IMG/VR virus record: IMGVR_UViG_3300046804_003973
Coordinates: 1 to 23,620 of that record
Strand: one strand, 5' to 3'
From: a virus
Length of the DNA stretch: 23,620 nucleotides
Of this stretch, positions 3,098 through 21,205 are shown piece after piece. The position numbers were made by a program, and so were the translations under genes. Position 1 is the first letter of the stretch, and the number at the start of each line of letters is the position of its first letter. A model generated the notes under the pieces. The model was not told where the DNA came from. It made no database searches and was given only the letters and a program-made list of their open reading frames with translations.

Positions 3098-3394
3098 ATG
3101 AGTAAAATACAAATTGATCTAGAAGATCACGACTTTGGTTTTTCTGCTGTTAGTGAAGACGAACTCAAATCAATGGAGCGTCAGCTCCAACAGCAGGTTG
3201 AGCAGAAAGAACAAGAACTGTCGTTGACTTCCAAAGAATATAAAGATAAACTGGAAGCTCTTTATAAACTTATTATGCCATTGCTACTCAACCTAGCTAA
3301 GGATAGTGACAAAGAGTACATTCTTTGGCCAGATCGATCTAAAAAGATGAAGGCCTTCATTGATAAGGTAAACAAGTTAGTGGAAAATGATTAA
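3098..3394 (+). CDS. Conserved-looking small acidic protein between polymerase and membrane protein
   Basis: A 98-residue hydrophilic protein of unknown function. The N-terminus IDLEDHDFGFSAV is followed by a helical, Glu/Gln-rich stretch (about residues 25-48) that looks like a short coiled coil. A C-terminal part containing EYILWPDRSKK and a basic helix comes next. I recognise this arrangement from marine T4-like phages, where such a gene often follows gene 43, but no function is established to my knowledge. AGGA at the end of the polymerase gene provides the ribosome binding site. Its end overlaps the next gene by 8 bases, so the two are probably translated together. Confidence 0.75.
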   Translation: MSKIQIDLEDHDFGFSAVSEDELKSMERQLQQQVEQKEQELSLTSKEYKDKLEALYKLIMPLLLNLAKDSDKEYILWPDRSKKMKAFIDKVNKLVEND

Positions 3395-5329: not shown

Positions 5330-5468
5330 CAAAAACCAAGTAGGGTTCAAGTTCTTTTTTAGGGACAAGGACCTACTTGAGTTTTTAGGTAGCAGACCAA
5401 ACGGTGCCACTGTAATTTTACTGGAGCAATATGATAGAGAAACTCATACTTTCAAACCTCTTAAATAA
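5286..5468 (+). CDS. Small overlapping gene between uvsX and gene 41
   Basis: This encodes 60 residues from ATG 5286 (MDQQVQQYKV...), preceded by AAGGGA at 5272-5277 at normal spacing. The frame is open further upstream (to about 5112), but a start there would lie deep inside uvsX and lacks a comparable site. The product has a beta-strand start (YKVTFRND), an aromatic-rich middle (VGFKFFFRDKDLLEFL) and a C-terminal strand (ATVILLEQYD), which looks like a small alpha/beta domain. It overlaps uvsX by 44 bases and gene 41 by 38 bases. Small genes at this position occur in other T4-like phages. Function is unknown; a helicase or recombination accessory role is only positional inference. Confidence 0.7.
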   Translation: MDQQVQQYKVTFRNDKNQVGFKFFFRDKDLLEFLGSRPNGATVILLEQYDRETHTFKPLK

Positions 5469-6819: not shown

Positions 6820-7006
6820 CGCAGTAGGATTTCTGATTACGTTTACCTGGGTGTTTCTTCTCTCCACATTCATACTAACGTTTCAAACTTTATTCATCTA
6901 TCTCTTAAAGATGTTTGATCTTCCTTACGATGTGATAACAGCTATACATATGATTAAAGAAATGAAGAAAGAACATGAAGATATTGACGAGACAATTCAG
7001 AAATAA
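6797..7006 (+). CDS. Small membrane protein overlapping the helicase gene
   Basis: A 69-residue protein with one long or two short hydrophobic segments in the first 40 residues (FLITFTWVFLLSTFILTFQTLFIYLL). A charged helical tail follows (IKEMKKEHEDIDETIQK). It has no signal-peptidase site and probably sits in the inner membrane with the tail in the cytoplasm. The gene overlaps gene 41 by 23 bases and the next gene by 32 bases. The ribosome binding site is weak (CAAAG), so translation probably depends on coupling with gene 41. Function is unknown. The clean hydrophobic/charged partition and the strand support a real gene. Confidence 0.6.
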   Translation: MLLTRLFNAVGFLITFTWVFLLSTFILTFQTLFIYLLKMFDLPYDVITAIHMIKEMKKEHEDIDETIQK

Positions 7007-7424
7007 AAAGCTATCCAATACCCTCAGAAGAGCTACTTCTTTTTATCTCAGCAGACTAAACCAAGACACATCAAACATCACCATCCATATTATTCAAATG
7101 CCAAACTTAGGAGCTGATGGTACTTGTGAAAAAGTATCCAGTAAAGAGTTTATTATTGAACTCAATCAGGATCTTGGATTAGAGCATCGCCTTGTTACAT
7201 TAGCTCATGAGACAGTGCATATTAAACAATACATTACTAAGCGACTGAGAACCTGGCACCTAAAGACAGGTACGATTGATATATGGGAAGGCAAACGATT
7301 TCGTAATGTGGACTACTTTCAGCAGCCGTGGGAAGCTGAAGCATTGTTACTAGAAGAACAACTCTACATAGATTTTGTGACAGAATGTTATGCTATGGGA
7401 ATTGATCTTCGAGAATACGCATGA
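6975..7424 (+). CDS. HExxH zinc-metallopeptidase-like protein (cytoplasmic type)
   Basis: A 149-residue protein with a basic N-terminal region and a zinc-binding helix LAHETVHIKQY in which H78-E79-T80-V81-H82 is the HExxH motif. A downstream PWEAEA (E120/E122) in a helix about 40 residues later is a good candidate for the third, glutamate, zinc ligand of a gluzincin. No signal peptide is visible, so it should act in the cytoplasm or be packaged. Similar compact HExxH proteins are found in other large phages, generally uncharacterised. Substrate is unknown. The start at 6975 overlaps the small membrane protein gene by 32 bases and the Shine-Dalgarno is weak, so the exact start is less certain than the frame. 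Confidence 0.75.
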   Translation: MKILTRQFRNKKLSNTLRRATSFYLSRLNQDTSNITIHIIQMPNLGADGTCEKVSSKEFIIELNQDLGLEHRLVTLAHETVHIKQYITKRLRTWHLKTGTIDIWEGKRFRNVDYFQQPWEAEALLLEEQLYIDFVTECYAMGIDLREYA

Positions 7425-7441
7425 ATAGTGGGGTTTACCTG

Positions 7442-7470
7442 TTGACCAAATTACTACATTATTGTATAAT
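7442..7470 (+). promoter_or_regulatory. Sigma70-type promoter for the secreted metallopeptidase and clpP-like genes
   Basis: TTGACC (7442-7447) and a perfect TATAAT (7465-7470) are 17 bases apart, in the 73-base gap between two genes. Transcription would begin near 7477, about 20 bases before the ATG at 7498. This is the strongest host-type promoter in the window by eye. It suggests early expression of the two genes downstream, independently of the replication operon. Confidence 0.75.
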
Positions 7471-7497
7471 TAGTCATACTTTCTTGTAGAGGACCCC

Positions 7498-7950
7498 ATG
7501 TTTAAATACCTATTTGTTATTCTTTTGTTAACTAGCTCTGCTGCGCACGGAGCTAATTCTGATTTCCTGCCTATGCTTGAGCAGGCAAAGCAGTTGATGA
7601 AGTATAATAAGGAAATCAAACTTCCAATAATGGTTCCAAAGACCGAGAAGCAATTGAAGCAAATATTCTGTCCCGGACAGGACTGTTCTGTGTCTGCCAT
7701 ATACAGTGATGGTACTGTATATTATGACAAGCGAATAGATTATAAGAACAATATTATCGATCGATCAATTATTATTCATGAAATGATCCACCATATCCAA
7801 GCCAAGAAGCACGGTCTCACCTACGAGTGTGATATGTGGTATCATAAAGAACGTCAAGCATATCGACTCCAGGCTCAGTTTCTTCGAGCAAATGGAATCA
7901 ATGCCTCTTTTGTTAACGATGTAACTGCGAGCCTAAAATGTCCAAAGTAA
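7498..7950 (+). CDS. Secreted HExxH zinc-metallopeptidase-like protein
   Basis: A 150-residue protein with an N-terminal signal peptide (about residues 1-19: MFK, then a hydrophobic core LFVILLLTSSA, with a likely cut after AHG-A). It should be exported to the periplasm, or lipid-free beyond it. H94-E95-M96-I97-H98 forms HExxH in a helix (IIIHEMIHHIQ), and E118 in KERQAYRLQ is the likely third ligand, as in gluzincins. Four cysteines (58, 63, 111, 148) remain after cleavage and could form two disulfides, which fits an extracytoplasmic location. Preceded by AGAGGA at 7488-7493 and its own sigma70 promoter. It overlaps the ClpP-like gene by 13 bases. Target unknown; host envelope proteins are a guess. 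Confidence 0.8.
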   Translation: MFKYLFVILLLTSSAAHGANSDFLPMLEQAKQLMKYNKEIKLPIMVPKTEKQLKQIFCPGQDCSVSAIYSDGTVYYDKRIDYKNNIIDRSIIIHEMIHHIQAKKHGLTYECDMWYHKERQAYRLQAQFLRANGINASFVNDVTASLKCPK

Positions 7951-8513
7951 ATGAACCAGAAAAGTTTCAACCACAAACAGTGTGGGATGATGTCGATTGG
8001 ATCATCCATAACTCAGGATCTTATTACCTAACAGGTGATATAGATGAGAACAGCATCACACCAGTTATTAAATGGATCCTAGCTGAAAATATTGCTCAGC
8101 GTCACAAGCAGCTCAACCTTTTTATTAATAGTTGCGGTGGAGATCTCTACCAGGCATTCGGCTTAATTGATATAATGAAGTCGAGCAAGATCCCGGTAGC
8201 TACAAACGGTGTTGGCAGCCTTATGAGTGCTGCTTTCCTCATATTCATGTCGGGTGTCAAGGGTAAGCGATTTATTACTAAAAATACAAGTATCATGTCA
8301 CACCAGTTCTCTACCTTTTATGAAGGTAAGGAGCATGATGTCAAGGCCTCTGAAAAGGAAACAAGGTACATCAAGCAGCGTATGCTGGATGTTATGAAAG
8401 AGAGCTGCTCAATGGATGAGCGGATGATTAAGCGAAAACTCTTACCACCGTCAGATGTTTGGCTATCCGCAGAGGAATGCGTCGAGCTAGGAGTAGCGGA
8501 CGCAACTTTTTAG
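7938..8513 (+). CDS. clpP: ClpP-like serine protease
   Basis: A 191-residue ClpP/crotonase-fold peptidase, about the length of bacterial ClpP. Conserved landmarks are INSCGGDLYQAFGLIDIM (residues 64-80, equivalent to the ClpP INSPGG region), the nucleophile S97 in GSLMSAAF, H122 in IMSHQFS, and D173 in SDVWLSAEE aligned with the D-x-F-L-S-A motif of E. coli ClpP. The triad therefore looks complete. Cytoplasmic; ClpP normally forms a tetradecamer and needs a Clp ATPase, none of which is encoded in this window, so it may work with a host unfoldase. A role in prohead maturation is also possible for ClpP-fold phage proteases, but the gene sits outside the head genes and precedes the late promoter. 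It overlaps the preceding gene by 13 bases. Confidence 0.88.
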   Translation: MSKVNEPEKFQPQTVWDDVDWIIHNSGSYYLTGDIDENSITPVIKWILAENIAQRHKQLNLFINSCGGDLYQAFGLIDIMKSSKIPVATNGVGSLMSAAFLIFMSGVKGKRFITKNTSIMSHQFSTFYEGKEHDVKASEKETRYIKQRMLDVMKESCSMDERMIKRKLLPPSDVWLSAEECVELGVADATF

Positions 8514-8515
8514 AA

Positions 8516-8523
8516 TATAAATA
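8516..8523 (+). promoter_or_regulatory. T4-type late promoter TATAAATA
   Basis: An exact match to the T4 late-promoter -10 octamer, 41 bases before the ATG at 8557 and just after the ClpP-like stop. T4-type late promoters need only this octamer, recognised by the phage late sigma factor with the sliding clamp. By eye, TATAAATA occurs at only three places in the window, all intergenic and all directly before genes. Confidence 0.8.
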
Positions 8524-8977: not shown

Positions 8978-8985
8978 TATAAATA
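8978..8985 (+). promoter_or_regulatory. T4-type late promoter TATAAATA for the cargo operon
   Basis: An exact TATAAATA octamer immediately downstream of the terminator and 25 bases before the ATG at 9010, whose ribosome binding site GGAG lies at 9000-9003. It should drive the tightly coupled genes 9010-12471 late in infection, when heads are assembled. Confidence 0.85.
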
Positions 8986-9009: not shown

Positions 9010-9996
9010 ATGAAATCATTCTCAACCTTCCTATCTGAATCCCTTCTTATTGAACGTGCACCTATGAAAGCATCTGGTGCCAAAGCAGATTACGATGTTA
9101 ACAAGTATCTCAACCCTGAGATGCGCAAGCAGCACACGTACAACACTGCCAGAGATACAGAAGGTATTCCAAAGGGTACATCTGTAAAGGTAAAGAAAGT
9201 TGTTACTAAAGATGGTAAGTACCATGCTCATGTAGAGCACGAAGGTAAAACAAAGGTTGTTCCTGTTAATCATCTCGAAAAGCCAGGTGGGTATGAGAAT
9301 CTGAAGTCAGAGGATGCTCAAATCAAGTCTCTACACAGCCAAATTCAGGCTCACGTCAAAGCAAACGGTGGAAAGCCAATTGATCTTCACATAGGTGGTA
9401 ACAAGTACAAGGTAGCTGGTGCTCGTAAGGTTGAGGGTAATGTCAAAGCTGATTTCGTTTTGCATGATCACCATGACAAACCTGTATACTATGGTTCTCT
9501 CAAGGCTGGTGCACACCCATCTAAGTTTTCAGGGTACGGTGGTTTCTCGCATATGAAAAATGCATCTGTGCACGCTGCATCAAGAAGTTTAGCAACAAAT
9601 ATTGCCAAGAAACCTTTAGAACAGGGTGAGATGGCGTTCCATAAATTCCACGCTGGTGAAGCAGACCACGAGCATGTTGTGAGACAAGCGTTGTTTGGAA
9701 AAGAGGTTGGTGCCAAGGAACACGGTGAATCAAATATTAATGGTGTTCATCACGGTAATATTACTATTGGTAAAAACTCCAAAGGTCATCTTGAGATGCA
9801 TTCTGACCTAGACTTCCATAACACAGGTCATGACATGATCAAGCATCTTGAAAAGTCCCATGGTGGCCACGTTGGTATATTTGTTAGGAAGGGTGAGCAA
9901 GGAAGAAAGATTCCTAACACTAACATTGAAGGTAGAGGTGGCATTGGTATGTCAAATATGAGAAAAGATTCATCTAAGATTAGGCCGGTAAAATAA
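9010..9996 (+). CDS. Tagged late protein, possible capsid cargo, nuclease-like pattern
   Basis: A 328-residue His-rich protein. The first ten residues MKSFSTFLSE resemble the capsid-targeting leader of T4 internal proteins, and LSE-S at 8-11 fits the L/I-x-E/small prohead-protease cleavage rule. Residues 55-90 look like a small beta-barrel (SVKVKKVVTKDG...KTKVVPV). At 146-165 the pattern KADFVL...PVYYGSLK resembles the D-x(n)-(D/E)xK core of PD-(D/E)xK nucleases with Ser in place of the acidic residue, followed by a Gly-rich GYGGFS. I treat this as suggestive only. It is the first gene behind the late promoter at 8978; GGAG at 9000-9003 supports the start. Its TAA shares a base with the next ATG (TAATG), so translation is coupled. 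Confidence 0.78.
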   Translation: MKSFSTFLSESLLIERAPMKASGAKADYDVNKYLNPEMRKQHTYNTARDTEGIPKGTSVKVKKVVTKDGKYHAHVEHEGKTKVVPVNHLEKPGGYENLKSEDAQIKSLHSQIQAHVKANGGKPIDLHIGGNKYKVAGARKVEGNVKADFVLHDHHDKPVYYGSLKAGAHPSKFSGYGGFSHMKNASVHAASRSLATNIAKKPLEQGEMAFHKFHAGEADHEHVVRQALFGKEVGAKEHGESNINGVHHGNITIGKNSKGHLEMHSDLDFHNTGHDMIKHLEKSHGGHVGIFVRKGEQGRKIPNTNIEGRGGIGMSNMRKDSSKIRPVK

Positions 9997-11162
9997 TGCG
10001 TCACATATTCCTCTTATTAAAAGAATCAGCTGCTAACGAAGAGAAGCTGACTCACCTTGAGCACGCTGAAGACCATCCTATCAATGCTGGTGTCGAAGGA
10101 TACAAGCACGCTATGAATACTCTGACAGCTGTGCACAAGACACTAACTGGCCAAAAGGGTGGTGCTGATCTAATGACCAAATATGATGGTAGTCCAAGTA
10201 TTGTATTTGGACATCATCCTCAGACTGGCAAGTTCTTTGTTGCATCTAAATCAGCTTTCAACAAGAACCCAAAGATCAACTACACAGAAGAAGACATTGA
10301 AAACAACCACGGACACGCTCCTGGACTAGTTTCGAAGCTTAAGACTGCTCTACACTACCTTCCAAAGGTTGCACCTCAGAAAGGCGTCTTTCAGGGTGAT
10401 GTAATGCATACTTCAGAAGATGTAAGTGAAAAGGGTGGTAAGGTTCACTTCAAACCAAATCTAATTAAATACTCAACTCCATCCAACTCTGCAGAAGGCA
10501 AAGCAATCAAGAACTCTAAGATCGGTGTATACGTTCATACAGGGTATGAAGGTAAGGATGTTGAGTCAATGAAAGCAAATTACACTCCAAATCTTTCTGG
10601 GTTTGCTAACCATGGTGATGTTCATTTAATGAAGTATGGATACAATACAAAGAATGCTGACTATAATGAAGACTCTCAGAAAGAGTTCAGACGTCATATG
10701 GAAGATGCTGCTGATGTTGGTAAGAAGCTTAAGAAGCAGCACTATGATATCCTTGCACCTCACACCGAGCACGTAAAGACTTACATCAACAAGACTGTAC
10801 GTGAAGATACAAAGCCAACTGCAGAAGGTCTTTATGATCATGTTAAAGAGCAACATGAGAAGGGTATTGACAAAGTAAAGACTCAGAAAGCAAAAGATCA
10901 AAAGACTCAAGCAATGAACTCTGATTTATCTCACATCAGAGCTAACCACGAGACTATTAATAACGTATTCCAGTTGCACCACCACTTACAAAAAGCTAAG
11001 GATGTGTTGGTCAATGCAATGTCACACGGTCAAGATTACGAACATCACATTGGTGATACTAAAACAAAACCAGAAGGGTTTGTTGCTGTTGTAAATAACA
11101 GGCCAACTAAACTTGTTGATAGAAATGAGTTTAGTAAACAGAACTTCTTAGCGAGACAATGA
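9996..11162 (+). CDS. Ligase-type (KxDG) nucleotidyltransferase-like protein, possible capsid cargo
   Basis: A 388-residue protein of a family I know from marine T4-like phages as conserved but uncharacterised. K62-Y63-D64-G65 (TKYDGSPSIVFG) matches motif I of covalent nucleotidyltransferases such as DNA/RNA ligases and capping enzymes. Further candidates in the expected order are KSAFNKNP (about 85-92), FQGDVMHT (132-139), VHFKPN (150-155), KIGVYVHT (175-182), and near the C-terminus EGFV (360-363) with K372 (PTKLVD), which resemble motifs IV and V. A helical, charged insertion spans about 240-350. The N-terminus MRHIFLLLKESAA ends in LKE-S, compatible with a processed capsid-targeting tag. 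Coupled to both neighbours by TAATG (9994-9998) and ATGATG (11159-11164). The substrate (DNA, RNA or other) is unknown. Confidence 0.8.
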   Translation: MRHIFLLLKESAANEEKLTHLEHAEDHPINAGVEGYKHAMNTLTAVHKTLTGQKGGADLMTKYDGSPSIVFGHHPQTGKFFVASKSAFNKNPKINYTEEDIENNHGHAPGLVSKLKTALHYLPKVAPQKGVFQGDVMHTSEDVSEKGGKVHFKPNLIKYSTPSNSAEGKAIKNSKIGVYVHTGYEGKDVESMKANYTPNLSGFANHGDVHLMKYGYNTKNADYNEDSQKEFRRHMEDAADVGKKLKKQHYDILAPHTEHVKTYINKTVREDTKPTAEGLYDHVKEQHEKGIDKVKTQKAKDQKTQAMNSDLSHIRANHETINNVFQLHHHLQKAKDVLVNAMSHGQDYEHHIGDTKTKPEGFVAVVNNRPTKLVDRNEFSKQNFLARQ

Positions 11163-11767
11163 TGAAAAGGTTTTCTCAATTCATAGCTGAAGCAGTGCAG
11201 AAGAAAGCACTCCATGTGTTTGATATTGATGATACTCTTATGCATACCACAGCCAAGATCCACGTTAAGGATCCACAAGGCAAAGTAGTGAAAACTCTTA
11301 CAAATCAAGAGTTTAATGACCACAAGCTACCAGCTGGTCACAGCTACGACTTTGGTGAATTTAGAAATGCTGAGAAGTTCAACAGAGAATCAAAGCCAAT
11401 GCCACACATGATTAACCATGTTAAGAAGTTAACAGCTGATCCAAGCAATCATGTAATCTTTAATACTGCACGTGCTAACTTTGATGATAAGAATACTTTC
11501 TTACGAACATTCAAGAAGCACGGTATTGATATGAGCAAGATTCACGTCATCAGGGCTGGTAACCTCAGTAAAGAAGGTGCTCCTGCTGAAAAGAAAGCTG
11601 TTGTTATTCACGGATATATAAAGAAGCACAAATACAATGATGTTCATATGTACGATGATAGTAAAACCAATCTAAAGTCTTTTGTTGGATTAAAACAGGT
11701 CCATCCAAACACAACATTCCATGCTCATCATGTTGAGGGTGAGAATGTAACAACAAAGGTAGTATAA
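11162..11767 (+). CDS. HAD-superfamily phosphatase with T4-like capsid-targeting tag
   Basis: A 201-residue HAD hydrolase. Motif I is FDIDDTL (D21 nucleophile, D23 acid/base), motif II is NTAR (T102), motif III Lys is probably K144 or K145, and motif IV is MYDDSKTN (D165, D166). All catalytic positions are present, predicting a phosphatase, possibly acting on a nucleic-acid or nucleotide end as in the phosphatase half of T4 Pnkp; substrate is inference. The N-terminus MKRFSQFIAE matches 6 of 10 residues of the T4 internal-protein leader MKTYQEFIAE and is followed by Ala, the preferred cleavage position. Two adjacent ATGs exist (11159 and 11162). I chose 11162 because it lies at better spacing from GAG at 11153-11155 and gives the MK start seen in its neighbours. 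Confidence 0.88.
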   Translation: MKRFSQFIAEAVQKKALHVFDIDDTLMHTTAKIHVKDPQGKVVKTLTNQEFNDHKLPAGHSYDFGEFRNAEKFNRESKPMPHMINHVKKLTADPSNHVIFNTARANFDDKNTFLRTFKKHGIDMSKIHVIRAGNLSKEGAPAEKKAVVIHGYIKKHKYNDVHMYDDSKTNLKSFVGLKQVHPNTTFHAHHVEGENVTTKVV

Positions 11768-12471
11768 TGAAAAGATTTTCAAGTTTCCTATTAGAAGGAA
11801 AAGACAAGACTGCTGTTCTATTATTTGGTAGAATGAACCCTATTACTAGTGGTCACGAAGAGAATGTGAATGCTGCTCATGATATAGCTACATCAGCTGA
11901 CGGTCATCTCCATATTGTTGCTAGTGGTTCTCACGATGAAAAGAAGAATCCGCTTTCACCAGAACAAAAACAGACACACCTCAATCGTGCTTTTGGACAC
12001 CTTGAAAATACTACAATAACAACAGCATCAAAAACAAATCCTACTATAATGCACCACGCTTCAGAGATTGCGAAGACAGGTGCAAAACATTTAGTTATTG
12101 CTGGTGGTGGCGATAGAGCAGAAGAGTATAAGACACTACTCAATAAGTATAACGGAGTCAAAGGAAAAGGCCATGGTGAGTATAACTTTGACACAATTAC
12201 AGTAAAAAACACTGGTGAACGTAAAGCTGGTGTAAGTGGTACAGATATGAGACAACACGCTGCTAGTGGAAACTTCAATCAGTTTAGAGCTGGACTTCCA
12301 TCTCAAATTCAAAAGAACGTAACACACTCGAAGGAAATCTATAATGATGTGCGAAATGGGATGAACATTGGAGGATCAAGAAGTGGTGGAGGTGGTGGAG
12401 GTGGGCCTGGTATGGTTGGTTCCACATCCGGCAATTTACTGCGAATGATGAACCCTCAAAAAATATATTAA
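11767..12471 (+). CDS. HIGH-type nucleotidyltransferase (NMNAT/cytidylyltransferase-like) with capsid-targeting tag
   Basis: A 234-residue protein. After the tag MKRFSSFLLE (LLE-G fits the cleavage rule) comes a Rossmann-like domain. FGRMNPITSGHEENV at 20-34 corresponds to the (H/T)xGH nucleotide-binding motif, with T27-S28-G29-H30 replacing the first His by Thr. VSGTDMR at 156-162 corresponds to the ISxTxxR motif of the same superfamily, and LVIAGGGDR at 109-117 is a central strand and loop. This predicts adenylyl or cytidylyl transfer. NMN adenylyltransferase is the closest activity by motif, but substrate is not proven. The C-terminus has a seven-glycine run (SGGGGGGGPG, about residues 206-216) and a short basic tail, perhaps a flexible tether. 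Start shares TAATG with the previous gene. Confidence 0.85.
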   Translation: MKRFSSFLLEGKDKTAVLLFGRMNPITSGHEENVNAAHDIATSADGHLHIVASGSHDEKKNPLSPEQKQTHLNRAFGHLENTTITTASKTNPTIMHHASEIAKTGAKHLVIAGGGDRAEEYKTLLNKYNGVKGKGHGEYNFDTITVKNTGERKAGVSGTDMRQHAASGNFNQFRAGLPSQIQKNVTHSKEIYNDVRNGMNIGGSRSGGGGGGGPGMVGSTSGNLLRMMNPQKIY

Positions 12472-12503: not shown

Positions 12504-13151
12504 GTGAACACTTTATTTGATGATAACTCTAAATACAGACATGAAGAAGTAGAGGGTGTTAAGGGTTGGTGGTGGCCTAAAGCAGACGATGGAGCTTGGG
12601 AAGGCCCTCTACAAGACTGGTATGCACTTAAGAGTGCCTTTGACCTTGTGAAAGAAAAGAAAGTAGTTGTACAGGCTGGTGGTAATTGTGGTCTTTATCC
12701 TAGATTGCTTTCTGATATATTTGAGAGAGTGTATACATTTGAACCTGATTCATTCAATTTTCACTTCCTAGTAAAAAATTGTCAAAAAGAAAACATTATT
12801 AAAATTAATGCTGCACTTGGAGATGTCAACAAGTTAGTTGATTCTGTAAGAGCCAAAGGAGACTTTGGTAATTCAAACTGCGGTGCATTAACAATCAATG
12901 ATAACAATAAGCTCGTTCCTGTTTTTACCATTGACCAGTTATCACTTGACCGTTGTGATTACATTCAACTGGATTGTGAAGGATATGAAGCTAATGTTAT
13001 TGTTGGTGCAATGGAAACAATATTTCAATTTAAGCCTGTAATCACTTTAGAGACCATGACTCCTGAAATTGAGCAGTTACTATTTCCTCTTGGATATAGT
13101 GAAGTGGCTGGTAGCTTTGGTCACATCGATCGCTGCTTTGCAGTAGTTTAA
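12504..13151 (+). CDS. FkbM-type SAM-dependent methyltransferase
   Basis: A 215-residue protein. VVVQAGGNCGLYPRLLS (residues 54-70) is a class I methyltransferase motif I, with the SAM-binding Gly-rich loop. YTFEPD (77-82) carries the acidic residue at the end of strand 2, and DYIQLDCEGYEANVIVGA (152-169) is the diagnostic FkbM-family signature. These enzymes methylate O or N positions on sugars, polyketides and other small molecules, often in surface polysaccharide clusters. A phage copy could modify a virion or host glycan or a nucleotide, but substrate cannot be inferred. No capsid-targeting tag is present, unlike its upstream neighbours. GTG start at 12504; the gene lies 32 bases after the cargo operon and just before a late promoter. 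Confidence 0.85.
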   Translation: MNTLFDDNSKYRHEEVEGVKGWWWPKADDGAWEGPLQDWYALKSAFDLVKEKKVVVQAGGNCGLYPRLLSDIFERVYTFEPDSFNFHFLVKNCQKENIIKINAALGDVNKLVDSVRAKGDFGNSNCGALTINDNNKLVPVFTIDQLSLDRCDYIQLDCEGYEANVIVGAMETIFQFKPVITLETMTPEIEQLLFPLGYSEVAGSFGHIDRCFAVV

Positions 13152-13153
13152 TT

Positions 13154-13161
13154 TATAAATA
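13154..13161 (+). promoter_or_regulatory. T4-type late promoter TATAAATA for the structural operon
   Basis: An exact TATAAATA octamer 3 bases after the methyltransferase stop and 44 bases before the ATG at 13205. The leader between (13162-13204) is relatively GC-rich and contains the palindrome GGCC and a purine-rich GGAAAG ribosome binding site. Confidence 0.82.
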
Positions 13162-13204: not shown

Positions 13205-15046
13205 ATGAAAAAGAGAAAAAAAGCCCCACAAGATGTGGCACTAATGACTGGTAACCCTAACGATATTATCGTGGTTTCACCAGAAGAAAAGCCAGTAAAA
13301 TATCAAACAGAAGCCGCACAGGCTATCAAACAGCTTAAGTCTAAACTTAAAGCTCCAGATTTTGTCTATATTGCTCCCACAGAACGCGTAGCCATCGATA
13401 AGAAGGCTGACAAGCAAGCAAGAGACATCAAAAAACTAGTTAGTAAATTAAGCACACAAGAAGTCACAGAAGAAGACCTCAACGGCATATTTACGTCGTT
13501 GGGTGAGGGTGAGCTTGCTAAGAATGCTTTGTCTGTTGCCACTTCTCCAATTCGTGCTGTTGGCTTACTAGGTAAAGCAGCACTGGGTGCTGGAACAGCT
13601 GCAACTCTACTTTCTACACCTCAATCTGCAGCAATCACAACTGTAGGTGCAGCTAAAGTTCTTTCTGATAAGCTGGCAGGAGTTGGTAAGAATAAAACTA
13701 ATCCTGATACTGAGAAGATGTCTAAGTATCACACTGCGATCATGAAGCAGCGTGTTGCTCTATCTAAAGAGCAAACAAATCAAGCAAAGATTGATACAGC
13801 TATTCAAAAGAAAAGACTTGATGCCATCAACGATATCAAGAGAGGTGTAAACAGAAAGATATACGCTTACAATCAGGCTAATAAAGGTAAGGATTCTATT
13901 CAGACCTATTCCAAGTCTGGGGTGTATGGAACACCTAAACCAACTTCTACATCACCAGTATCTAATACAGCACCGTCTGTGATTATTCCATCATCTTATA
14001 GAACCAGACCCACCACAAGTAATACTACAATTGTATCCCACAGAGAATGGGACCGTGAAAAGTATATTGAAGAGAAGAATCAGCTTGCACTTCAGAGGAA
14101 AGCTGAAAAGTATGGAGTTGATATTGAGATTGTAGAGAATGTTTTCAAGCAAGGCCTTGTAGAGTATGACGAAAGAGGCAACGCCACTGTCAACCAATTT
14201 GCTATGCAGAGAGTCAATTCTTTCCTTGCTAACTATTTGGAAGAGAAGAAGACGGTGATGATCCGCGGTAAGAGAAAAAGGATCGTTGGAGAAACTCCAG
14301 GTGCTGTTTATACAAGAACTGCTCTAAAGTCTTCTGGTAAGACAAAGATTTTAAAAACTCCTATGACTGCTCAGCAAAAGCAGAAAAGAGCTGTAATAAC
14401 TCTAAAGAGGAAGCTCAAGCAGAAAGTCTATGAGGAGACTGGTTTAGAAGAAGGTGGTTTGTGGGATAACATTCACGCTAAGCGTGCCCGTATTAAAGCC
14501 GGTTCTGGTGAGAAGATGAGAAAGCCAGGATCAGAGGGTGCACCTACCAAACAAAACTTCATTGATGCTGCAGAGCAAGTTGATAACGTCAATGAAGTGT
14601 CCAAAGAGCTTCTTAACAGATACTTGTGGGCTGCAAAATCTGAAGATAAAGATAGAATGGATAAGGCTATGAAGATAGTCAAAAAGCCTTTAGACAAAAA
14701 AACTAAAAAAGACTATGATAAAGTAGATAAGCTACTTACCAAATCAATCAAACGTAGTCAGGGAATTCAAAATGCAGCCGAAAAGATTATGGCGAAGGAG
14801 TCTATTGAAGAAAGCTTCATCGTAGATCGTGCAGCAGGTTACAGTACTACCTACACAGCAGCGGATCTTGGAATCAAGATTCAAGGTGGATTTGAGCTAC
14901 ATCCTTCGGTAACTGAAGAGGGTGGTGCAGGAGACATCGGTACTGATAAACTCGTTAAGAAGTATAAAAAAGACACACCAGGAGAAGCTGTAGAGCAGCT
15001 CCAACGTGTTATCAGAGCAAGAAGAAAGGCAAGTACACAATGCTAA
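13205..15046 (+). CDS. Large modular probable virion protein
   Basis: A 613-residue basic protein with recognisable segments but no known activity. Residues 1-100 are Lys-rich and helical. A hydrophobic Ala/Gly/Leu-rich stretch runs at about 115-152. A Ser/Thr/Pro linker occupies 238-280. A segment at 302-345 (KYGVDIEIVENVFKQGL...) resembles a short domain common in marine T4-like phage proteins. A basic motif follows at 419-446 (GLWDNIHAKR...KAGSGEKMRKPGS), also widespread in such phages. Residues 464-530 form one copy of the NEVSK...RSQGI module that recurs in the gene at 19553. The C-terminus has GDIGTDKLVKKYK (577-589). First gene of the third late transcript; probably structural or scaffold-associated. 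It overlaps the next gene by 7 bases. Confidence 0.75.
   Translation: MKKRKKAPQDVALMTGNPNDIIVVSPEEKPVKYQTEAAQAIKQLKSKLKAPDFVYIAPTERVAIDKKADKQARDIKKLVSKLSTQEVTEEDLNGIFTSLGEGELAKNALSVATSPIRAVGLLGKAALGAGTAATLLSTPQSAAITTVGAAKVLSDKLAGVGKNKTNPDTEKMSKYHTAIMKQRVALSKEQTNQAKIDTAIQKKRLDAINDIKRGVNRKIYAYNQANKGKDSIQTYSKSGVYGTPKPTSTSPVSNTAPSVIIPSSYRTRPTTSNTTIVSHREWDREKYIEEKNQLALQRKAEKYGVDIEIVENVFKQGLVEYDERGNATVNQFAMQRVNSFLANYLEEKKTVMIRGKRKRIVGETPGAVYTRTALKSSGKTKILKTPMTAQQKQKRAVITLKRKLKQKVYEETGLEEGGLWDNIHAKRARIKAGSGEKMRKPGSEGAPTKQNFIDAAEQVDNVNEVSKELLNRYLWAAKSEDKDRMDKAMKIVKKPLDKKTKKDYDKVDKLLTKSIKRSQGIQNAAEKIMAKESIEESFIVDRAAGYSTTYTAADLGIKIQGGFELHPSVTEEGGAGDIGTDKLVKKYKKDTPGEAVEQLQRVIRARRKASTQC
14579..14794 (+). 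repeat. Copy 1 of the VDEVSK...RxxGI protein module
   Basis: Codes for residues 459-530 of the 613-residue protein. It begins QVDNVNEVSKELLNRYLW and ends IKRSQGIQNAAEKIM. The same head (VDE-V/L/I-S/K-K-x-x-x-x-x-Y) and tail (R-x-x-G-I/V-x-x-A) occur three times in the gene at 19553. Similarity is at protein level and degenerate. Confidence 0.55.
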
Positions 15047-15621
15047 CATTCTCTCAATTCCGCTCTGACATAGAAGAGCAGCAATACAATCCTATGTCTA
15101 AGGATGTTACGCCTGAGAATCCGAGAACTCAGCAGATGATTGATGCATTTAAGAAGATGCAGCAGAGACAAGAATTCTATGGAAAAAATCCTGGTGACAT
15201 TAAAGGTGATCCTAGTGAAATAGGTGACACATGGGATGATTACAAAAGACACATAAGAGTACATGGTAATGCTCCAATGAGGTTACCTAATCCTAAACCT
15301 GAAACTGGTAATGAAGTTCCTTTAGATTTAGATAAGCATGATCCGGATGTTACAGGTAGCAGAAAAACAAAGAAGATCATGGAAGCAGAATACCAAGGTC
15401 GTGATGTTCCTCTAAACAAACCAATGGCTGGTGACGTTAAGAAGTCAAAAGTGTTTGTTAAGAACGAACAGGGTAATGTTGTCAAAGTAAACTTTGGTGA
15501 CAAGAACATGACTATCAAGAAGAACATCCCTGCTCGTCGCAAGAGCTTCAGAGCAAGACACAATTGTGAAGAGCCAGGTCCTAAAACAAAAGCAAGATAT
15601 TGGTCTTGCAAAGCATGGTGA
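15040..15621 (+). CDS. Probable virion protein with C-terminal Cys/basic domain
   Basis: A 193-residue protein in two parts. The N-terminus MLTFSQFRSDIEEQ resembles the MK-F-S-x-F tags of the cargo genes. Residues 10-110 are polar and probably flexible. From about residue 118 comes a compact domain (QGRDVPLNKPMAGDVKK..., then KVFVKNEQGNVVKVNFG), ending in a basic segment RRKSFRARHNC and YWSCKAW with two cysteines and several Trp/Tyr/Arg residues. I recognise this C-terminal domain as recurrent in marine T4-like phages, sometimes fused to other proteins; its function is unknown to me, and the Cys/His pattern could bind metal. The start overlaps the previous gene by 7 bases. Confidence 0.75.
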   Translation: MLTFSQFRSDIEEQQYNPMSKDVTPENPRTQQMIDAFKKMQQRQEFYGKNPGDIKGDPSEIGDTWDDYKRHIRVHGNAPMRLPNPKPETGNEVPLDLDKHDPDVTGSRKTKKIMEAEYQGRDVPLNKPMAGDVKKSKVFVKNEQGNVVKVNFGDKNMTIKKNIPARRKSFRARHNCEEPGPKTKARYWSCKAW

Positions 15622-15625
15622 TAAT

Positions 15626-16072
15626 ATGAGAGAACAATTGATTGAAAAAATGAAGGTAGTGCTTGCTGATAGCTTTGCACTGTACTTGAAAGCACACCAA
15701 TATCATTGGAATGTAGAAGGTCCAGACTTTCCTCAGTACCACGAGTTTCTTGGAAACTTGTACGAAGAAGTATTTGGAGCTGTTGATACGATTGCAGAAG
15801 AGATCAGAGCTCTTGGTGAGTATGCACCAGGATCGTTTAGTAGGTTTTCAGAACTGACTTCTATCAAAGATAGTCGTAATACTCCAACTGCTGCTGAGAT
15901 GATGACAACTCTTCTTGCTGATAATCAGATCGTTCTAAATACGTTAATGGAAGCATACAAATTAGCAGAAGAGTATAACGAGATTGGATTATCTAACTTT
16001 ATTCAAGACAGATACGATGCTCACAAGAAGCATGCTTGGATGATCAGATCTATTCTAAAGAGAGCGCAATGA
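15626..16072 (+). CDS. dps: Dps-like ferritin-family protein
   Basis: A 148-residue four-helix ferritin-fold protein. H27 (YHWNVEG), H39 (QYHEFL), D54 and E58 (AVDTIAEEI) align with the E. coli Dps ferroxidase ligands H51, H63, D78 and E82. The residue corresponding to D67 is Gly43. Dps dodecamers oxidise and store iron with hydrogen peroxide and often protect DNA. Here the N-terminus lacks the long Lys-rich DNA-binding tail of E. coli Dps, and the C-terminus is basic (RSILKRAQ). A longer open frame starts at 15566, but ATG 15626 is preferred: it follows GGTGA at 15616-15620 and directly gives the conserved first helix. It lies inside the late structural operon, which suggests late expression and perhaps packaging with the virion. 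Confidence 0.88.
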   Translation: MREQLIEKMKVVLADSFALYLKAHQYHWNVEGPDFPQYHEFLGNLYEEVFGAVDTIAEEIRALGEYAPGSFSRFSELTSIKDSRNTPTAAEMMTTLLADNQIVLNTLMEAYKLAEEYNEIGLSNFIQDRYDAHKKHAWMIRSILKRAQ

Positions 16073-16677
16073 AAAGATACAGAACAATGGAGAATGTGAT
16101 TCGTGACGTTGTTCGCAAGTCGAGACTTGGTGAGCAAAAAATGCCTATGGGTATGAAGTTTGGCAGAGGTCACATCGAAAAAGATCAGAGTGATCAGATC
16201 GTTGCTGGTACCTATAAAACTAAAAACTTTGAGATGTGCCCTGGAGCACAGAAGTTATTTTCTAATATCAATAAAGATCAAACAGTAACTAATCCAGATA
16301 AGCTCGAAAAAATGGCTATCCTACACGATCAGCTATTCGCACTAGAGAAGCAAGCTATTGCCAAAGAGCAATCGTCTACAGATGACACTAAAGAAGCTCA
16401 ACAGATTGCTCAGAAGATTTATATGCTCGGTGATGATCTGAAGCTGGGAGACAAGTTAAATTATATTGGAAAACATATTGATAACATTAAGTCATACGAA
16501 AAACCAGACCAGATGGTATTTGATAATCCTTCTCCTGATTTAATCAGAAAGAGATTGACAGAGCCACCAGCATCAAGAACAAAAGAGCCAGAAGATAGAG
16601 ATGTTGATAACACCAAGTTCCTCATCTCGAGAAATATCAAGGCACAACGTAAACTAAAGATTATCGACGCAGATTAA
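16069..16677 (+). CDS. Unknown late protein, probably virion-associated
   Basis: A 202-residue mostly helical, hydrophilic protein with no motif I can assign a function to. Visible landmarks are KNFEMCPGAQKLF (about residues 47-59), which I associate with conserved proteins of other marine T4-like phages, and a polar, Pro/Asp-rich C-terminal region. The N-terminus MKRYRTMENVIRDVVRKSRLGE begins like the tagged proteins nearby but lacks a clear cleavage site. An upstream ATG at 16036 is in frame, but it would overlap the Dps gene by 37 bases. ATG 16069 has AAGAGAG at 16058-16064 and shares ATGA with the Dps stop, so I use it. Confidence 0.75.
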   Translation: MKRYRTMENVIRDVVRKSRLGEQKMPMGMKFGRGHIEKDQSDQIVAGTYKTKNFEMCPGAQKLFSNINKDQTVTNPDKLEKMAILHDQLFALEKQAIAKEQSSTDDTKEAQQIAQKIYMLGDDLKLGDKLNYIGKHIDNIKSYEKPDQMVFDNPSPDLIRKRLTEPPASRTKEPEDRDVDNTKFLISRNIKAQRKLKIIDAD

Positions 16678-16679
16678 AA

Positions 16680-19556
16680 ATGAAAAAAATATACGAATCT
16701 GCTAAAGAAATTCTCTCTGAGAAGTACAATAGAGAAGATCTAGAGAAGGAAGCTCAGAGACTTTCCAAAGTACACAACGTTCCGTACGATGTGGTAAAAC
16801 ACGTTATTAATAAAGAGACTGGTGGTACGTGGAAAACAGATCAGGTCAATCCAGATAGTGGTGCCACTGGCATCATGCAGATCCTTCCGAGATATGCAAC
16901 TAACACTCCAGCTGGGTATGAAGTTCACAAGAAAGATCTTTTGGATCCTTATAAGAGTATGAATGCTGGTATCAAGAAGCTTGGTCAGTGGTACAACGCA
17001 CATAGAAACAAGAAGCTACCGGAAGATCAACTTGATGTAGCAGCAGCTAAAAAAGCTATGGCTTCATACAATGCTGGACCAAATGGTGGTATTGAAAAAG
17101 ATAAGCAAGGTAAAGTTAAATACGTAGGTGCTGCCACATATATTAAAACAGGAAACCCTAAACATCTACCTCTTGAAGCTCAAAACTATATCAAGGATTT
17201 TGGAGTAGAAAATAAAGTTGCAAGTAACAAGTCGGATAAACCATTCAAACGTGATGCCTCAGCTATAAAGGCTCAAATAGATCCAAAGCAGCACGAGATC
17301 AAAGATAATCGTCCGCAGGCTAACACTGTAGCAGCTCCAGTAGTGCAGTCTAAGCCAGCTCAGGAAGCTCCTAAAAAAGAAGTTAAGGTTAATACTCAGC
17401 AGCAGGCTGCTCCTGAAGTCAAAACTCAAGTATCAGATCCTAATTCTGATAATCCATATCCTCCTGGATCAAAGGATTGGTACTTCAAAGATGCAAGGAA
17501 CAGGGGATTGAAGTCGTACAAAGATCCAAATACCGGTAAAGAAATTGCAGTTAAATTAAAAGAAGATAGTGCTATGAAAAACGTTTACGGAGTAATCAAA
17601 GACATTCTTTCTGAGGCTAAAAAAGAAAGAATAACTGCACAACTTCCATCTAAAGAAGAACAGCAAAGAATAAGTAAAGAGCTGTCAACCTCCATTAGGA
17701 AAAGTTCTGCTAATCCAACTTATGGAGTAGCACCACTTAGTGGTGGTAATTATGAAAGAACTCCTGAGACTGTGATCAAACATAAAATCGCAGCTGATAA
17801 ATCATGGGGAGGTAAAGAATTTTCATACAATCAATATGTATCTACTGGTAAACCTGTTGAGACACAACAAAATGTAGCTGCTGTTACAAAAGCAGCTAAA
17901 CAGACCTCAAACAACGCTGGAGATATAAGACACACTCTTTCAGCCAATACGCTTAGTAGAATGCTACCAGATGGTAATAACCAGGTTATAGCTACTTCTA
18001 TAGTGCCAAAAACAGTAGTGTCTCAAGCTAACAATAATACTAAGCAAGTTCTATCGAAAGCTGTATCTCAGGCTAATAATGTGGTCCAGGCAAAAGCTGT
18101 ATCTAAGGCTAATACAGTAGTAGCACAAGCCAACACTGCTCCTCAACAGAAGTCACCATCTGTCAAAAAAGAACTAACTCCTTTTGAGAAAGAGTTTGCT
18201 AGAGCAAGAGCAGCAAAAGAAACGGAATTCACATGGCACGATGAAAAGGGCAGACCATATAAGGTTGGTACTAAACTTAAAGGTGAGACAAGTCCTCCCG
18301 AAGTTAAAAAAAGTGGCCCTGTAAGAACAACAACTACAAGAACAAGAAGTGTAACTCCTAGTGCTACAATAAGCCCTAACACTAGCGCACCTTCCAGTTC
18401 GGAAAAACCAGTTGACACCAAGTCTGTTGAAATTCCCCCAGAGGAAATGAGCAGTATAGATACTGAGATTGCGAACCAAAAGGCTGCAAAAAAAGCTGAA
18501 GTTGATGCGAAGATCAAAGCTGACTCTGAGAATATGTCGATGGAGTTCATTGGTGACAAAGAAGACCAAAATGTAAACAGTAATCCAGAAAAAGAAAATC
18601 AACCAGAAAAAAAACGCAAGTTCGATTATTCAAAAGGACTTCTAGGCCAGGACAATTCAAAAACTAACGAGGAAACCCAAATGTCAATCAATAAGAAATT
18701 TAATGTATCTGACTCTCTTTACACCGCAGTAATGGAAGTCATGAAGAAACCTTCTCAGGGATCTGCCCCAAGAAATGAGAAGGAAAAAGACCTTGCAGCC
18801 ATGACTCCACCAGGTCATCTAATTACTCACGGTGATGTTCTCAAGGCACGTGGCGTCAAGATGAAAGAGGATACAAATGTAGTTGGTGAAAGCTTAGCAA
18901 ACACTATTGTAACGTTAGGCAAAACAGTTGGATTGTTCAGAGATGAGCCTGAATCTACATCAACGCATGCATCTAAAAAAGATGAAAAGGAATCTATTAA
19001 GCAGACAAATCAAGGTAAGGCTAATATGCCTCCACCATCTAAAAAAGCGGTCAAAGAAGGGGTGATGGATACTGTTAAGAGTGTTAAAGATAAGCTAGTT
19101 AAAATTGGTCAGGATGCTGCTGAGCCATTCACAGGTACTCCAATTGGTCCTTCAGCTTCACTACTATCCACTATTACTGATAAGAGATGGCCAGAAAGAA
19201 AACCAGGTGATTTTGGGTATCCAGAAGGGAAACCTGATTGGACTAAACATATTGTTGGTGATGAAAAATCTACTGCAAAAGTACCTCAAAAAACACCTTC
19301 AAAGCCTGTACAGAAAGAGTCGATGGATACTCCAGGAAACAGCTACGAGCATCAATGTGCTATTCATGTTAAGAGTGAGTCGTTTGGTGAAGGACGTACA
19401 ATCACAACTCAACACGCTGATCCAGATCAGAATGGTAACATTGCATGGTATGATGTTATGTTTGAACATGGTATCGAAAGATATGTTCCAACAGCTGAGT
19501 TAGAGATCCTTGTTTCTGAGTCGCATATGCACTCAATGAAGAAAAAGAAAAAATGA
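16680..19556 (+). CDS. Large virion protein with N-terminal lytic transglycosylase (SLT) domain
   Basis: A 958-residue protein. Residues 1-14 (MKKIYESAKEILSE) resemble a tag. Residues 20-175 are a GH23/SLT-type transglycosylase: catalytic E46 in NKETGG, the GATGIMQILP motif at 61-70, and AMASYNAGP at 126-134, as in MltC/Slt70-family enzymes that cleave the MurNAc-GlcNAc bond of peptidoglycan. Residues 180-290 and 390-680 are low-complexity, rich in Ala, Lys, Pro, Ser, Thr and Gln, probably disordered. A second tag-like sequence MKNVYGVIKDILSEAKK starts at residue 299. A conserved-looking C-terminal domain (about 880-945: SYEHQCAIHVKSE..., GNIAWYDVMFEHGIE, AELEILVSE) ends in a Lys tail. Probably a virion-associated lysin used at entry; the long linkers would give reach. 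It starts 2 bases after the preceding stop and overlaps the next gene by 4. Confidence 0.87.
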   Translation: MKKIYESAKEILSEKYNREDLEKEAQRLSKVHNVPYDVVKHVINKETGGTWKTDQVNPDSGATGIMQILPRYATNTPAGYEVHKKDLLDPYKSMNAGIKKLGQWYNAHRNKKLPEDQLDVAAAKKAMASYNAGPNGGIEKDKQGKVKYVGAATYIKTGNPKHLPLEAQNYIKDFGVENKVASNKSDKPFKRDASAIKAQIDPKQHEIKDNRPQANTVAAPVVQSKPAQEAPKKEVKVNTQQQAAPEVKTQVSDPNSDNPYPPGSKDWYFKDARNRGLKSYKDPNTGKEIAVKLKEDSAMKNVYGVIKDILSEAKKERITAQLPSKEEQQRISKELSTSIRKSSANPTYGVAPLSGGNYERTPETVIKHKIAADKSWGGKEFSYNQYVSTGKPVETQQNVAAVTKAAKQTSNNAGDIRHTLSANTLSRMLPDGNNQVIATSIVPKTVVSQANNNTKQVLSKAVSQANNVVQAKAVSKANTVVAQANTAPQQKSPSVKKELTPFEKEFARARAAKETEFTWHDEKGRPYKVGTKLKGETSPPEVKKSGPVRTTTTRTRSVTPSATISPNTSAPSSSEKPVDTKSVEIPPEEMSSIDTEIANQKAAKKAEVDAKIKADSENMSMEFIGDKEDQNVNSNPEKENQPEKKRKFDYSKGLLGQDNSKTNEETQMSINKKFNVSDSLYTAVMEVMKKPSQGSAPRNEKEKDLAAMTPPGHLITHGDVLKARGVKMKEDTNVVGESLANTIVTLGKTVGLFRDEPESTSTHASKKDEKESIKQTNQGKANMPPPSKKAVKEGVMDTVKSVKDKLVKIGQDAAEPFTGTPIGPSASLLSTITDKRWPERKPGDFGYPEGKPDWTKHIVGDEKSTAKVPQKTPSKPVQKESMDTPGNSYEHQCAIHVKSESFGEGRTITTQHADPDQNGNIAWYDVMFEHGIERYVPTAELEILVSESHMHSMKKKKK

Positions 19557-21205
19557 AACCAACAAAAACTCCACAAGAGAAGTTCAAGGCCGGACTAAAA
19601 AAGTCCGGCTACGATCCGGATGCTGGTGCAAAGAGATTACTTGATCTTATTGCCAAGCAGAAAAAAGAACGTGAAGAATTTGAAAGTAAGTACAAATCCG
19701 CATACGAAGGAAGAGAGATGAAGACTCTTAAACAAATTATTGAAGGCACTGTCGTGATGTCTGATTTCAAATTAGACAAGAGAGGCAGAAAGTATAAAGC
19801 TCATCGTTCTACTATGGGACGTGGTGCTGAAATGACTGAAGGTCTTGCTGATGATGCTTTTGCTGAATTGGATGCGGAGGTTGAAAAGTCTAAGTCAGGA
19901 AAGAAGTCTATGGATCAAGCTAACTCTCTTGATAGGGATGTTGATAAATTCAGAGAAAGAGTTAAATCTGGACAAGCTGGTAAAAGCACTAAACTTAGTG
20001 ATATGAATCCATTGGACAGAGAGCAATGGGAAAAATCAAAGAAGGCTGCTGGAATTGAGGAAGATGTTGAGCAAGTCGACGAAGTTTCGAAAGAAACAGT
20101 GAGTGGCTACAATAAAAAAGCCATGGCATACATAAAAAACTACAAATACTCGAACAATCCTCCTTCAGTAAGACGTAAACTCGAGAATCGTTTCTCTGGT
20201 GTGGAACGTGCCGATGAGAGACTAAAAGGATCAAAGCCAACGAGTGAAGCAGTTGAAATGACAGAAGCATTGAAGTCTCCGGGACAAAAACAAGACTTTC
20301 AACGTATGATGTCTGGTGCAATGTCTCGTAAAGAATATAATGCAAAATATCCAAAGACTGCTGATCCAACTAAAAAATTAGATTCAACTGGTGTTTATAA
20401 GAATCTTATAAAAACTACAAAAGAAGAAGTTGAGCAGGTTGATGAGTTGAAGAAATCAACCTTAGCTTCTTATGTTAGCAAAGCTGTTACTGATGTTCAT
20501 AATCAAGCCTACAGATCTGGTGAAGCTTGGAATGATGCTATGACAAGAACAGGTAATTATAAAAAAGCATTGCCAACGTTAGCAAAAAGTATGAATCGTC
20601 AATCTGGTATCAGAAAAGCTGTTGGTAAAATGGCTAATGAAGAACTTGAACAGGTTGATGAGATCAGCAAAGGTAGTATCGAAAAGTATATGAATAGTGC
20701 TGTGCCTGATTACGGTCATCAAAATCTTATCAGCCGTGTAGGTAAAGGATCTGATAAAGAAGAGGCTACCAGAAAATTAGCTAACAGGTCTAGAGGTATC
20801 ACGAGGGCTGTTATGAAAACTACTGAAAAGAATATGAAGGAAGAACAGGAGTTAGATGAAGCACGTGGACGTCCACCTAGCGCAGCCACTCTTGCTAAGC
20901 GTGCAGCTGCAGCTGCCAAGCCACAGCATGACGATGATGAAGGCGAACATTATGATGCAGATAGCGGAGTAGAAGCAGATCAGCATATTCATGTTCAGCT
21001 AAAGAAAGCTGCTGATTCAGATCAAAAGCCATTTGAAGTATCATTCAGAAATGGTAAGAAGCACAAGGTATCTCAGAAGGTTGCTAAGGATATTCTTAGT
21101 GCTACAGAGAGATTAAAACCAGAACACAGAAAGAATGTTCACGACGAGATTCACCAGTCGTACGACAATCTGATGTCTGTTCACAGATTAGTAGCGGGTA
21201 GATAA
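19553..21205 (+). CDS. Large modular probable virion protein with repeated VDEVSK modules and an RGRP motif
   Basis: A 550-residue charged protein. Residues 1-55 form a Lys/Glu-rich helical segment. M56 begins MKTLKQIIEG, a tag-like sequence with a cleavage-like IIE-G and a strong internal ribosome binding site (AAGGA at 19707-19711), so a second or alternative start at 19718 is likely. Three repeat modules occur at about 171-224, 290-360 and 362-425. Residues 438-441 are RGRP, an AT-hook-like core, before an Ala/Lys stretch. A C-terminal domain (about 475-550: DQHIHVQLKKA..., FEVSFRNGKKHKVSQKVAKDIL) is of a type found in other marine T4-like phage proteins. Function unknown; probably a head-internal or structural protein. 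The start at 19553 lacks a strong Shine-Dalgarno and overlaps the previous gene by 4 bases. Confidence 0.78.
   Translation: MKPTKTPQEKFKAGLKKSGYDPDAGAKRLLDLIAKQKKEREEFESKYKSAYEGREMKTLKQIIEGTVVMSDFKLDKRGRKYKAHRSTMGRGAEMTEGLADDAFAELDAEVEKSKSGKKSMDQANSLDRDVDKFRERVKSGQAGKSTKLSDMNPLDREQWEKSKKAAGIEEDVEQVDEVSKETVSGYNKKAMAYIKNYKYSNNPPSVRRKLENRFSGVERADERLKGSKPTSEAVEMTEALKSPGQKQDFQRMMSGAMSRKEYNAKYPKTADPTKKLDSTGVYKNLIKTTKEEVEQVDELKKSTLASYVSKAVTDVHNQAYRSGEAWNDAMTRTGNYKKALPTLAKSMNRQSGIRKAVGKMANEELEQVDEISKGSIEKYMNSAVPDYGHQNLISRVGKGSDKEEATRKLANRSRGITRAVMKTTEKNMKEEQELDEARGRPPSAATLAKRAAAAAKPQHDDDEGEHYDADSGVEADQHIHVQLKKAADSDQKPFEVSFRNGKKHKVSQKVAKDILSATERLKPEHRKNVHDEIHQSYDNLMSVHRLVAGR
19707..19711 (+). promoter_or_regulatory. 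Internal ribosome binding site before a tag-like start at 19718
   Basis: AAGGA six bases before an in-frame ATG at 19718 whose product would begin MKTLKQIIEG. It is much better than the site for the annotated start at 19553, which has only AAGAAAAAG upstream. Confidence 0.5.
20063..20224 (+). repeat. Copy 2 of the VDEVSK...RxxGI protein module
   Basis: Residues 171-224 of the 550-residue protein. Head DVEQVDEVSKETVSGYNKKA, tail NRFSGVERADERL. The shortest of the four copies. Confidence 0.55.
20420..20632 (+). repeat. Copy 3 of the VDEVSK...RxxGI protein module
   Basis: Residues 290-360. Head EEVEQVDELKKSTLASYVSK, tail MNRQSGIRKAVGKM. Directly followed by copy 4 with only one residue between, so the two form a tandem. 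Confidence 0.6.
20636..20827 (+). repeat. Copy 4 of the VDEVSK...RxxGI protein module
   Basis: Residues 362-425. Head NEELEQVDEISKGSIEKYMN, tail ANRSRGITRAVMKT. It is followed at 431-437 by EQELDEA, which looks like the start of a fifth, truncated copy leading into the RGRP motif. Confidence 0.6.

Follow-up and report, generated by a model that had tools for sequence, protein, structure and literature searches.

What does a mini-ferritin do for a T4-like virus, and why does its gene stand among late genes? This question is raised by the dps gene in a viral DNA stretch of 23,620 nucleotides (IMG/VR record IMGVR_UViG_3300046804_003973, hereafter the window). Dps is an iron-oxidising, peroxide-consuming mini-ferritin whose usual home is bacteria. 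The DNA polymerase gene of the window is approximately 50% identical to those of T4-like cyanophages. Among 12 long contigs with a related dps gene, 11 carry a T4-type gp23 gene, and all 12 have a single dps.

Identification and structure of the window Dps

The gene and its product are as follows.

15626-16072, + strand: dps, encoding a Dps-family mini-ferritin of 148 residues with a conserved W28; assigned from Pfam and PHROG matches, an AF2 model, a PDB match and conservation

The ORF is intact and starts with ATG. A longer reading from a GTG at position 15566 was rejected because nearly all relatives begin at the ATG-equivalent position, which lies 25-26 residues ahead of HWN in 124 of 137 viral relatives, and they do not share the longer start. 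The preliminary description had called the product a Dps-like ferritin, and this is borne out by the match to the Pfam family PF00210 Ferritin (E 4.3e-27; score 95 bits, cut-off 24.5). The match to phrog_3636 covers the full length (E 1.3e-34, residues 3-145 on profile positions 6-148 of 149), and the strength of these two matches excludes chance. NCBIfam Dps models also match, with scores under their equivalog cut-offs. The gene is under strong purifying selection, with a median dN/dS of 0.08 over 73 viral pairs.

The AF2 monomer model, built with 44 sequences in the alignment, has a mean pLDDT of 94.6. Its predicted helices span residues 2-29, 35-51/53-62, 71-77 (short), 89-116 and 120-147, which corresponds to a four-helix ferritin fold with the short helix in the B-C loop that is expected of a Dps. 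In a structure search, the model matches many Dps proteins at Z scores of 20-23. By both sequence and fold, the best solved match is the Pseudomonas aeruginosa Dps PA0962 (PDB 8ff9), with a TM score of 0.93, a Z score of 23.4 and an rmsd of 1.2 over 146 residues at 38% identity. A 24-subunit ferritin or bacterioferritin was considered and rejected: there is no fifth (E) helix, helix D ends at residue 147 of a 148-residue chain, and the ligands are of the Dps type. It is thus close to certain that the product is a genuine mini-ferritin of the Dps family, of the same type as PA0962.

The ferroxidase center and its likely chemistry

The ligands H27, H39, D54 and E58, which had been noted as kept, are invariant in all 116 distinct viral and all 80 cellular relatives compared. 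Their spacing (+12, +27, +31) is that of Dps proteins and points to an inter-subunit His-His-Asp-Glu center. The assignment of Gly43 to the position of Escherichia coli D67 was confirmed as well. In the viral family, this position is occupied by Gly in 70, Glu in 16, Ser in 10, Gln in 9 and Asp in 4 of 116 sequences; an acidic residue here, absent in the window Dps, was not taken as defining a Dps. In the PA0962 structures, both irons are held only by the equivalents of H27, H39, D54 and E58 (PMC10002758). Since PA0962 holds both irons without a D67-type ligand, Gly43 need not cost activity.

PA0962 oxidises Fe2+ with H2O2 and not with O2; cells in which it is deleted are sensitive to H2O2, and it protects its host from this oxidant (PMC10002758). 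The window Dps resembles PA0962 (PDB 8ff9, 8ffa-8ffd) in its fold, in its four iron ligands and their spacing, in the lack of a D67-type ligand in use and in the lack of a basic tail. On the other hand, the phage protein starts about 10 residues later and has G43 where PA0962 has Glu, and the Tyr network of PA0962 (Y27, Y30, Y81 and Y84) is mostly not kept in the alignment, where the window residues are F17, Y20, F71 and F74. With Phe in place of most of this Tyr radical trap, the phage protein may differ from PA0962 in the details of its chemistry.

Viral relatives and phylogeny

Two collection scans, the broader of which gave at least about 600 rows, found at least 137 viral loci with close Dps relatives. 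In a tree made from a short alignment, with cellular sequences picked by similarity, the viral Dps group together in a single clade (SH-aLRT 98), separate both from the closest bacterial Dps, which are mostly proteobacterial, and from the Dps of isolated phages. The phage clade has G121 and H136, whereas the nearest proteobacterial Dps lack both, and H136 separates the two. These residues were considered as new metal ligands and set aside, as H136 is also found in Bacillus anthracis Dlp-1 and B. brevis Dps. A literature search for dps described as a metabolic gene carried by T4-like or freshwater phages found nothing specific.

Late promoters upstream of dps

Exact matches to the T4-type late promoter box occur three times in the window, each on the + strand and in a gap directly ahead of a gene.

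8516-8523, + strand: late promoter box TATAAATA in the gap ahead of the gene at 8557
8978-8985, + strand: late promoter box TATAAATA in the gap ahead of the gene at 9010
13154-13161, + strand: T4-type late promoter box TATAAATA, 43 nt ahead of the gene at 13205, heading the unit that contains dps

Three matches alone are mildly unusual (6 of 100 shuffles). Among 115 distinct viral loci, 65 of 114 such boxes lie in gaps 5-60 nt ahead of genes, while 55 other permutations of the same letters place a mean of 6 and at most 36 there. In 11 loci, a box lies 28-55 nt ahead of dps itself, and a Shine-Dalgarno-like stretch is found between the two. The window dps comes third in the unit that starts from 13154, whose genes overlap or are separated by a 4-nt gap. 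Sigma-70 promoter-like sites in the region are no more frequent than in shuffles. From this promoter arrangement, dps is very likely expressed late.

Neighbors of dps and capsid-targeting N-termini

The genes of the dps unit and the cluster ahead of it are listed below.

9010-9996, + strand: predicted internal head protein, CTS-like start MKSFSTFLSE
9996-11162, + strand: phrog_455 protein, CTS-like start MRHIFLLLKE (I4, L7, L8, E10)
11162-11767, + strand: HAD-like protein (weak match to DUF2608), CTS-like start MKRFSQFIAE from the second Met
11767-12471, + strand: cytidylyltransferase-like protein, CTS-like start MKRFSSFLLE
13205-15046, + strand: first gene of the late unit, 613 residues, short match to phrog_16028
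15040-15621, + strand: gene directly upstream of dps, CTS-like start and basic phrog_7595 C-terminus
16069-16677, + strand: gene directly downstream of dps, 202 residues, ATGA overlap with dps
16680-19556, + strand: next gene in the unit, 958-residue protein with an SLT transglycosylase domain (Pfam)

The CTS is the 10-residue capsid targeting sequence of T4, in which residues 4 and 7 serve packaging and residues 8 and 10 serve cleavage by gp21 (PMC9026906). Among 80 relatives that share the window's gene cluster, its layout (F4, F7, [LI]8, E10) is found in 105 genes against 2.4 in shuffles, although many of these genes are mutually homologous and hence not independent. They cluster one to seven genes upstream of dps. 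For the CTS-bearing enzymes at 9010-12471 of the window, the N-termini predict packaging, cleavage by gp21 and injection. On the other hand, none of the 137 viral Dps carries a CTS.

The gene at 15040 begins MLTFSQFRSD, with F4, F7 and D10. Asp at position 10 reportedly allows targeting and does not allow cleavage. Its C-terminal phrog_7595 domain (pI 10.1, charge +12) follows a gp21-type site, IME/A. Of 23 distinct members, 14 have a site of the form [LIVM]xE/[AGS] ahead of this domain, where 2.6 would be expected. The domain is very basic, has approximately 80 residues and occurs by itself, as the terminal part of long proteins or in fusion with Dps. Its fold model has a moderate pLDDT of 82, with no PDB match at E<0.001 and no Pfam family. 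The sites considered were as follows.

15040-15621 of the window: phrog_7595 domain protein
3379-3618 of locus L306: phrog_7595 domain
5747-5998 of locus L140: phrog_7595 domain

A homologue of the gene at 16069 adjoins dps in 14 distinct relatives. Other products of the window include a ClpP-type protease (7938-8513, E 7.5e-31) and an FkbM methyltransferase (12504-13151, E 7e-11), both upstream of dps. Two small HExxH proteins (6975-7424 and 7498-7950, with HETVH and HEMIH) match domains of unknown function weakly; one of these weak matches is of metallopeptidase type, and the protein at 7498-7950 has a signal-peptide-like start. A 550-residue protein at 19553-21205 repeats the motif E.VEQVDE(L/V/I)SK.T at least three times and has no family match.

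Gene contexts and fusions in relatives

Two contexts of dps account for most of the 113 classified loci. In 80 of them, the gene cluster is that of the window, and in 27, dps lies in the canonical structural cassette. Of the latter, 26 have dps beside one or both of the terminase genes gp16 and gp17, as a rule with gp15-gp16 on one side and gp17 on the other, and one has it after gp20; in one such locus (L003), gp13-15 and gp17-21 were identified by Pfam and PHROG and gp16 by position. The tree places two loci of the cassette type (L209 and L217) outside its main clade, a sign that dps may have moved into the gp16/gp17 site more than once. The gp23 gene is usually tens of kb to more than 100 kb from dps on contigs of the window's type and lies at approximately 10 kb in the one cassette-type contig checked. 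Because of this distance, the window cluster is to be read as a late cluster and not as a capsid or tail operon. The preliminary description had placed dps inside a virion-protein operon; late transcription and the CTS-bearing neighbors support this placement in part, whereas a capsid or tail cassette does not surround the gene. Its neighbors in the window are predicted, not proven, virion proteins.

A structure search of viral proteins found Dps domains within proteins named prohead protease. In L298 (4469-5884, - strand), a head-maturation protease (Pfam Peptidase_S78_2) and a Dps form one protein. In L270 (5440-7833, + strand), Dps is fused with Zeta_toxin (phrog_16619, minor head protein), and the fusion gene is flanked by genes for head morphogenesis and a head-maturation protease. 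A 1113-residue protein in L306 and L378 (in the latter at 4313-7651, - strand) holds Dps and the phrog_7595 domain in one chain, thus uniting the products of two adjacent window genes, dps and the gene at 15040; its gene abuts the portal gene, which is followed by the protease gene. In L366, dps directly follows the portal gene.

A less selected pattern scan covered 113 dps loci, fusion loci included; with its small query set, the counts are lower bounds. Head, neck or packaging neighbors were found in 11 loci, the window-type cluster in 25, only replication neighbors in 19 and none of the tested neighbors in 58. In the isolated phages examined, dps stands beside genes of nucleotide metabolism, sugar, sulfur or tRNA functions, and in S-SRM01, S-EIVl and Lactobacillus phage 3-521, it lies among non-head genes. 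Since many dps loci have no head neighbors, head association is a trait of part of the family.

Comparison with other phage systems

Dps is also encoded by the Grimontviridae C3 podophages (Privateer, 7-11 and others; phrog_3636), and these proteins share the four ligands. However, they are only approximately 26-31% identical to the window Dps, stand apart from the T4-like clade in the tree and, in those sequences that were read, carry Asp where E. coli has D67. Their genes sit with thioredoxin, dCTP deaminase, thyX or ribonucleotide reductase and not with late genes. The Privateer Dps was detected by mass spectrometry in CsCl-purified virions (PMC7881722), and a virion-associated phage Dps is thus already published. 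For SU10, the preparation in which Dps was detected contained thioredoxin, DNA polymerase and a sigma factor as well (PMC4281155) and hence was not pure. Gut phages (Gratiaviridae and others) and Lactobacillus phages bear Dps too, but belong to other phage groups. In the available portions of the reports, their Dps is proposed to aid infected cells against oxidative stress, and these portions propose no link to late promoters or head genes (PMC8008677, PMC6669764).

Two systems of other kinds offer a parallel. The neighbors of dps share the CTS layout of IPIII, one of the T4 internal proteins (IPI-III, Alt; PMC9026906), whereas Dps itself lacks a CTS. The multidomain proteins of L270, L298 and L378, which lie in head cassettes, resemble the polyvalent injected proteins (Iyer et al. 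2017, PMC5512222), whereas the window Dps stands alone; neither Dps nor ferritin domains are mentioned in the survey's text. What is new here is the late T4-like Dps clade and the fusions to head proteins.

Proposed function of the window Dps

With its Dps fold, its ferroxidase ligands and its late-promoter setting, the window protein is probably a late, peroxide-dependent ferroxidase that guards phage DNA around the time of packaging and is possibly head-associated. By analogy with the family, 12 subunits would form a hollow shell in which Fe2+ is bound between paired subunits, by H27 and H39 of one and D54 and E58 of the other. H2O2 would be spent in oxidising this Fe2+, and the Fe3+ would be stored inside, leaving little hydroxyl radical. 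Made late, during genome replication and packaging, Dps would guard phage DNA from Fenton damage. This protective ferroxidase role is likely. Among the functions proposed earlier, the quenching of peroxide late in infection is the best supported, by the PA0962-type ligands (H2O2, not O2) and the late-promoter unit, and protection of phage DNA is probable. That at least some Dps of the T4-like group is associated with the head or virion has about an even chance, with the balance slightly in favor.

A reading that overlaps with this one but fixes the place is that Dps is incorporated into the head alongside the internal proteins that bear a CTS and is ejected with the DNA. It would protect the DNA in the particle or, during the first minutes, shield the arriving DNA against iron and peroxide. 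It is supported by the late unit that dps shares with the basic, CTS-like, gp21-site protein directly upstream, by the concentration of CTS genes just ahead of dps and by the insertions at the gp16/gp17 site, with two loci outside the main clade. The fusions to a head-maturation protease and a minor head protein, the portal adjacency and the published Dps in Privateer virions and SU10 preparations point the same way. However, the CTS is missing from all 137 viral Dps, the SU10 preparation is impure and a 9-nm dodecamer can co-purify as debris. We give this reading a little less than an even chance.

Alternatively, Dps may be a free late stress protein, which buffers iron and peroxide from the failing host in the cytoplasm and never enters the particle; late-gene position would then set only timing and dose. 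An acidic, tail-less protein without a targeting signal is consistent with this, as are the many phage dps genes away from head genes and the 11 loci in which dps has its own late promoter and Shine-Dalgarno-like stretch, which would allow high expression without a structural partner. On the other hand, the fusions of Dps to head proteins and to the phrog_7595 domain in other phages are left unexplained. This reading is plausible but leans to the doubtful side.

A more specific proposal is that Dps is a recurrent component of phage heads. In T4-like phages, it would form a late pair with the gp21-processed phrog_7595 protein, the Dps as an iron and peroxide shell and its partner bound to DNA, both residing in the head and passing into the host together with the genome. 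Elsewhere, Dps would serve the same end as a domain fused with a head-maturation protease, with a minor head protein or with phrog_7595 itself. We offer this pairing tentatively and consider it rather unlikely as a whole.

The preliminary description had also suggested that the protein might coat phage DNA, that is, bind and condense it as E. coli Dps does in stationary phase. The PHROG label of the family is "DNA binding protein", and the neighboring product of the gene at 15040 is very basic. However, the window Dps has a pI of 5.2, as does the viral median, a charge of -7 at pH 7 and no Lys/Arg-rich N- or C-terminal tail of the E. coli DNA-binding type. Dps proteins of several organisms do not bind DNA (PMC10002758), and PA0962 acts on DNA as a nuclease. 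Coating is therefore improbable.

Delivery of iron, with virion Dps iron used for docking on host iron receptors or for feeding an iron-poor host in the manner of the Ferrojan hypothesis, found no support and is highly improbable: a ferritin-fold protein near structural genes is the component that this hypothesis needs, and a predicted ferritin was seen in virions of a Vi01-like phage, but Dps iron would be locked inside the shell and not displayed, no siderophore-like or tail gene is linked to dps, the one direct test on a phage with a predicted virion ferritin showed that Vi01-like phages infect hosts deficient in TonB or FeoB no less well than the wild type (PMC10892097), and Vi01-like (Kuttervirus) records are absent among the listed tblastn matches of the window Dps.

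Implications

The Dps encoded by phages has been interpreted as helping the infected cell. Three features, namely late promoters, insertion at gp16/gp17 and fusion with head proteins, suggest a place for Dps at the head or packaging stage in some phages. The debate on iron in phage particles gains a concrete candidate, although not in its receptor-docking version. If a head-stage Dps is confirmed, these particles would carry their own protection against oxidation.
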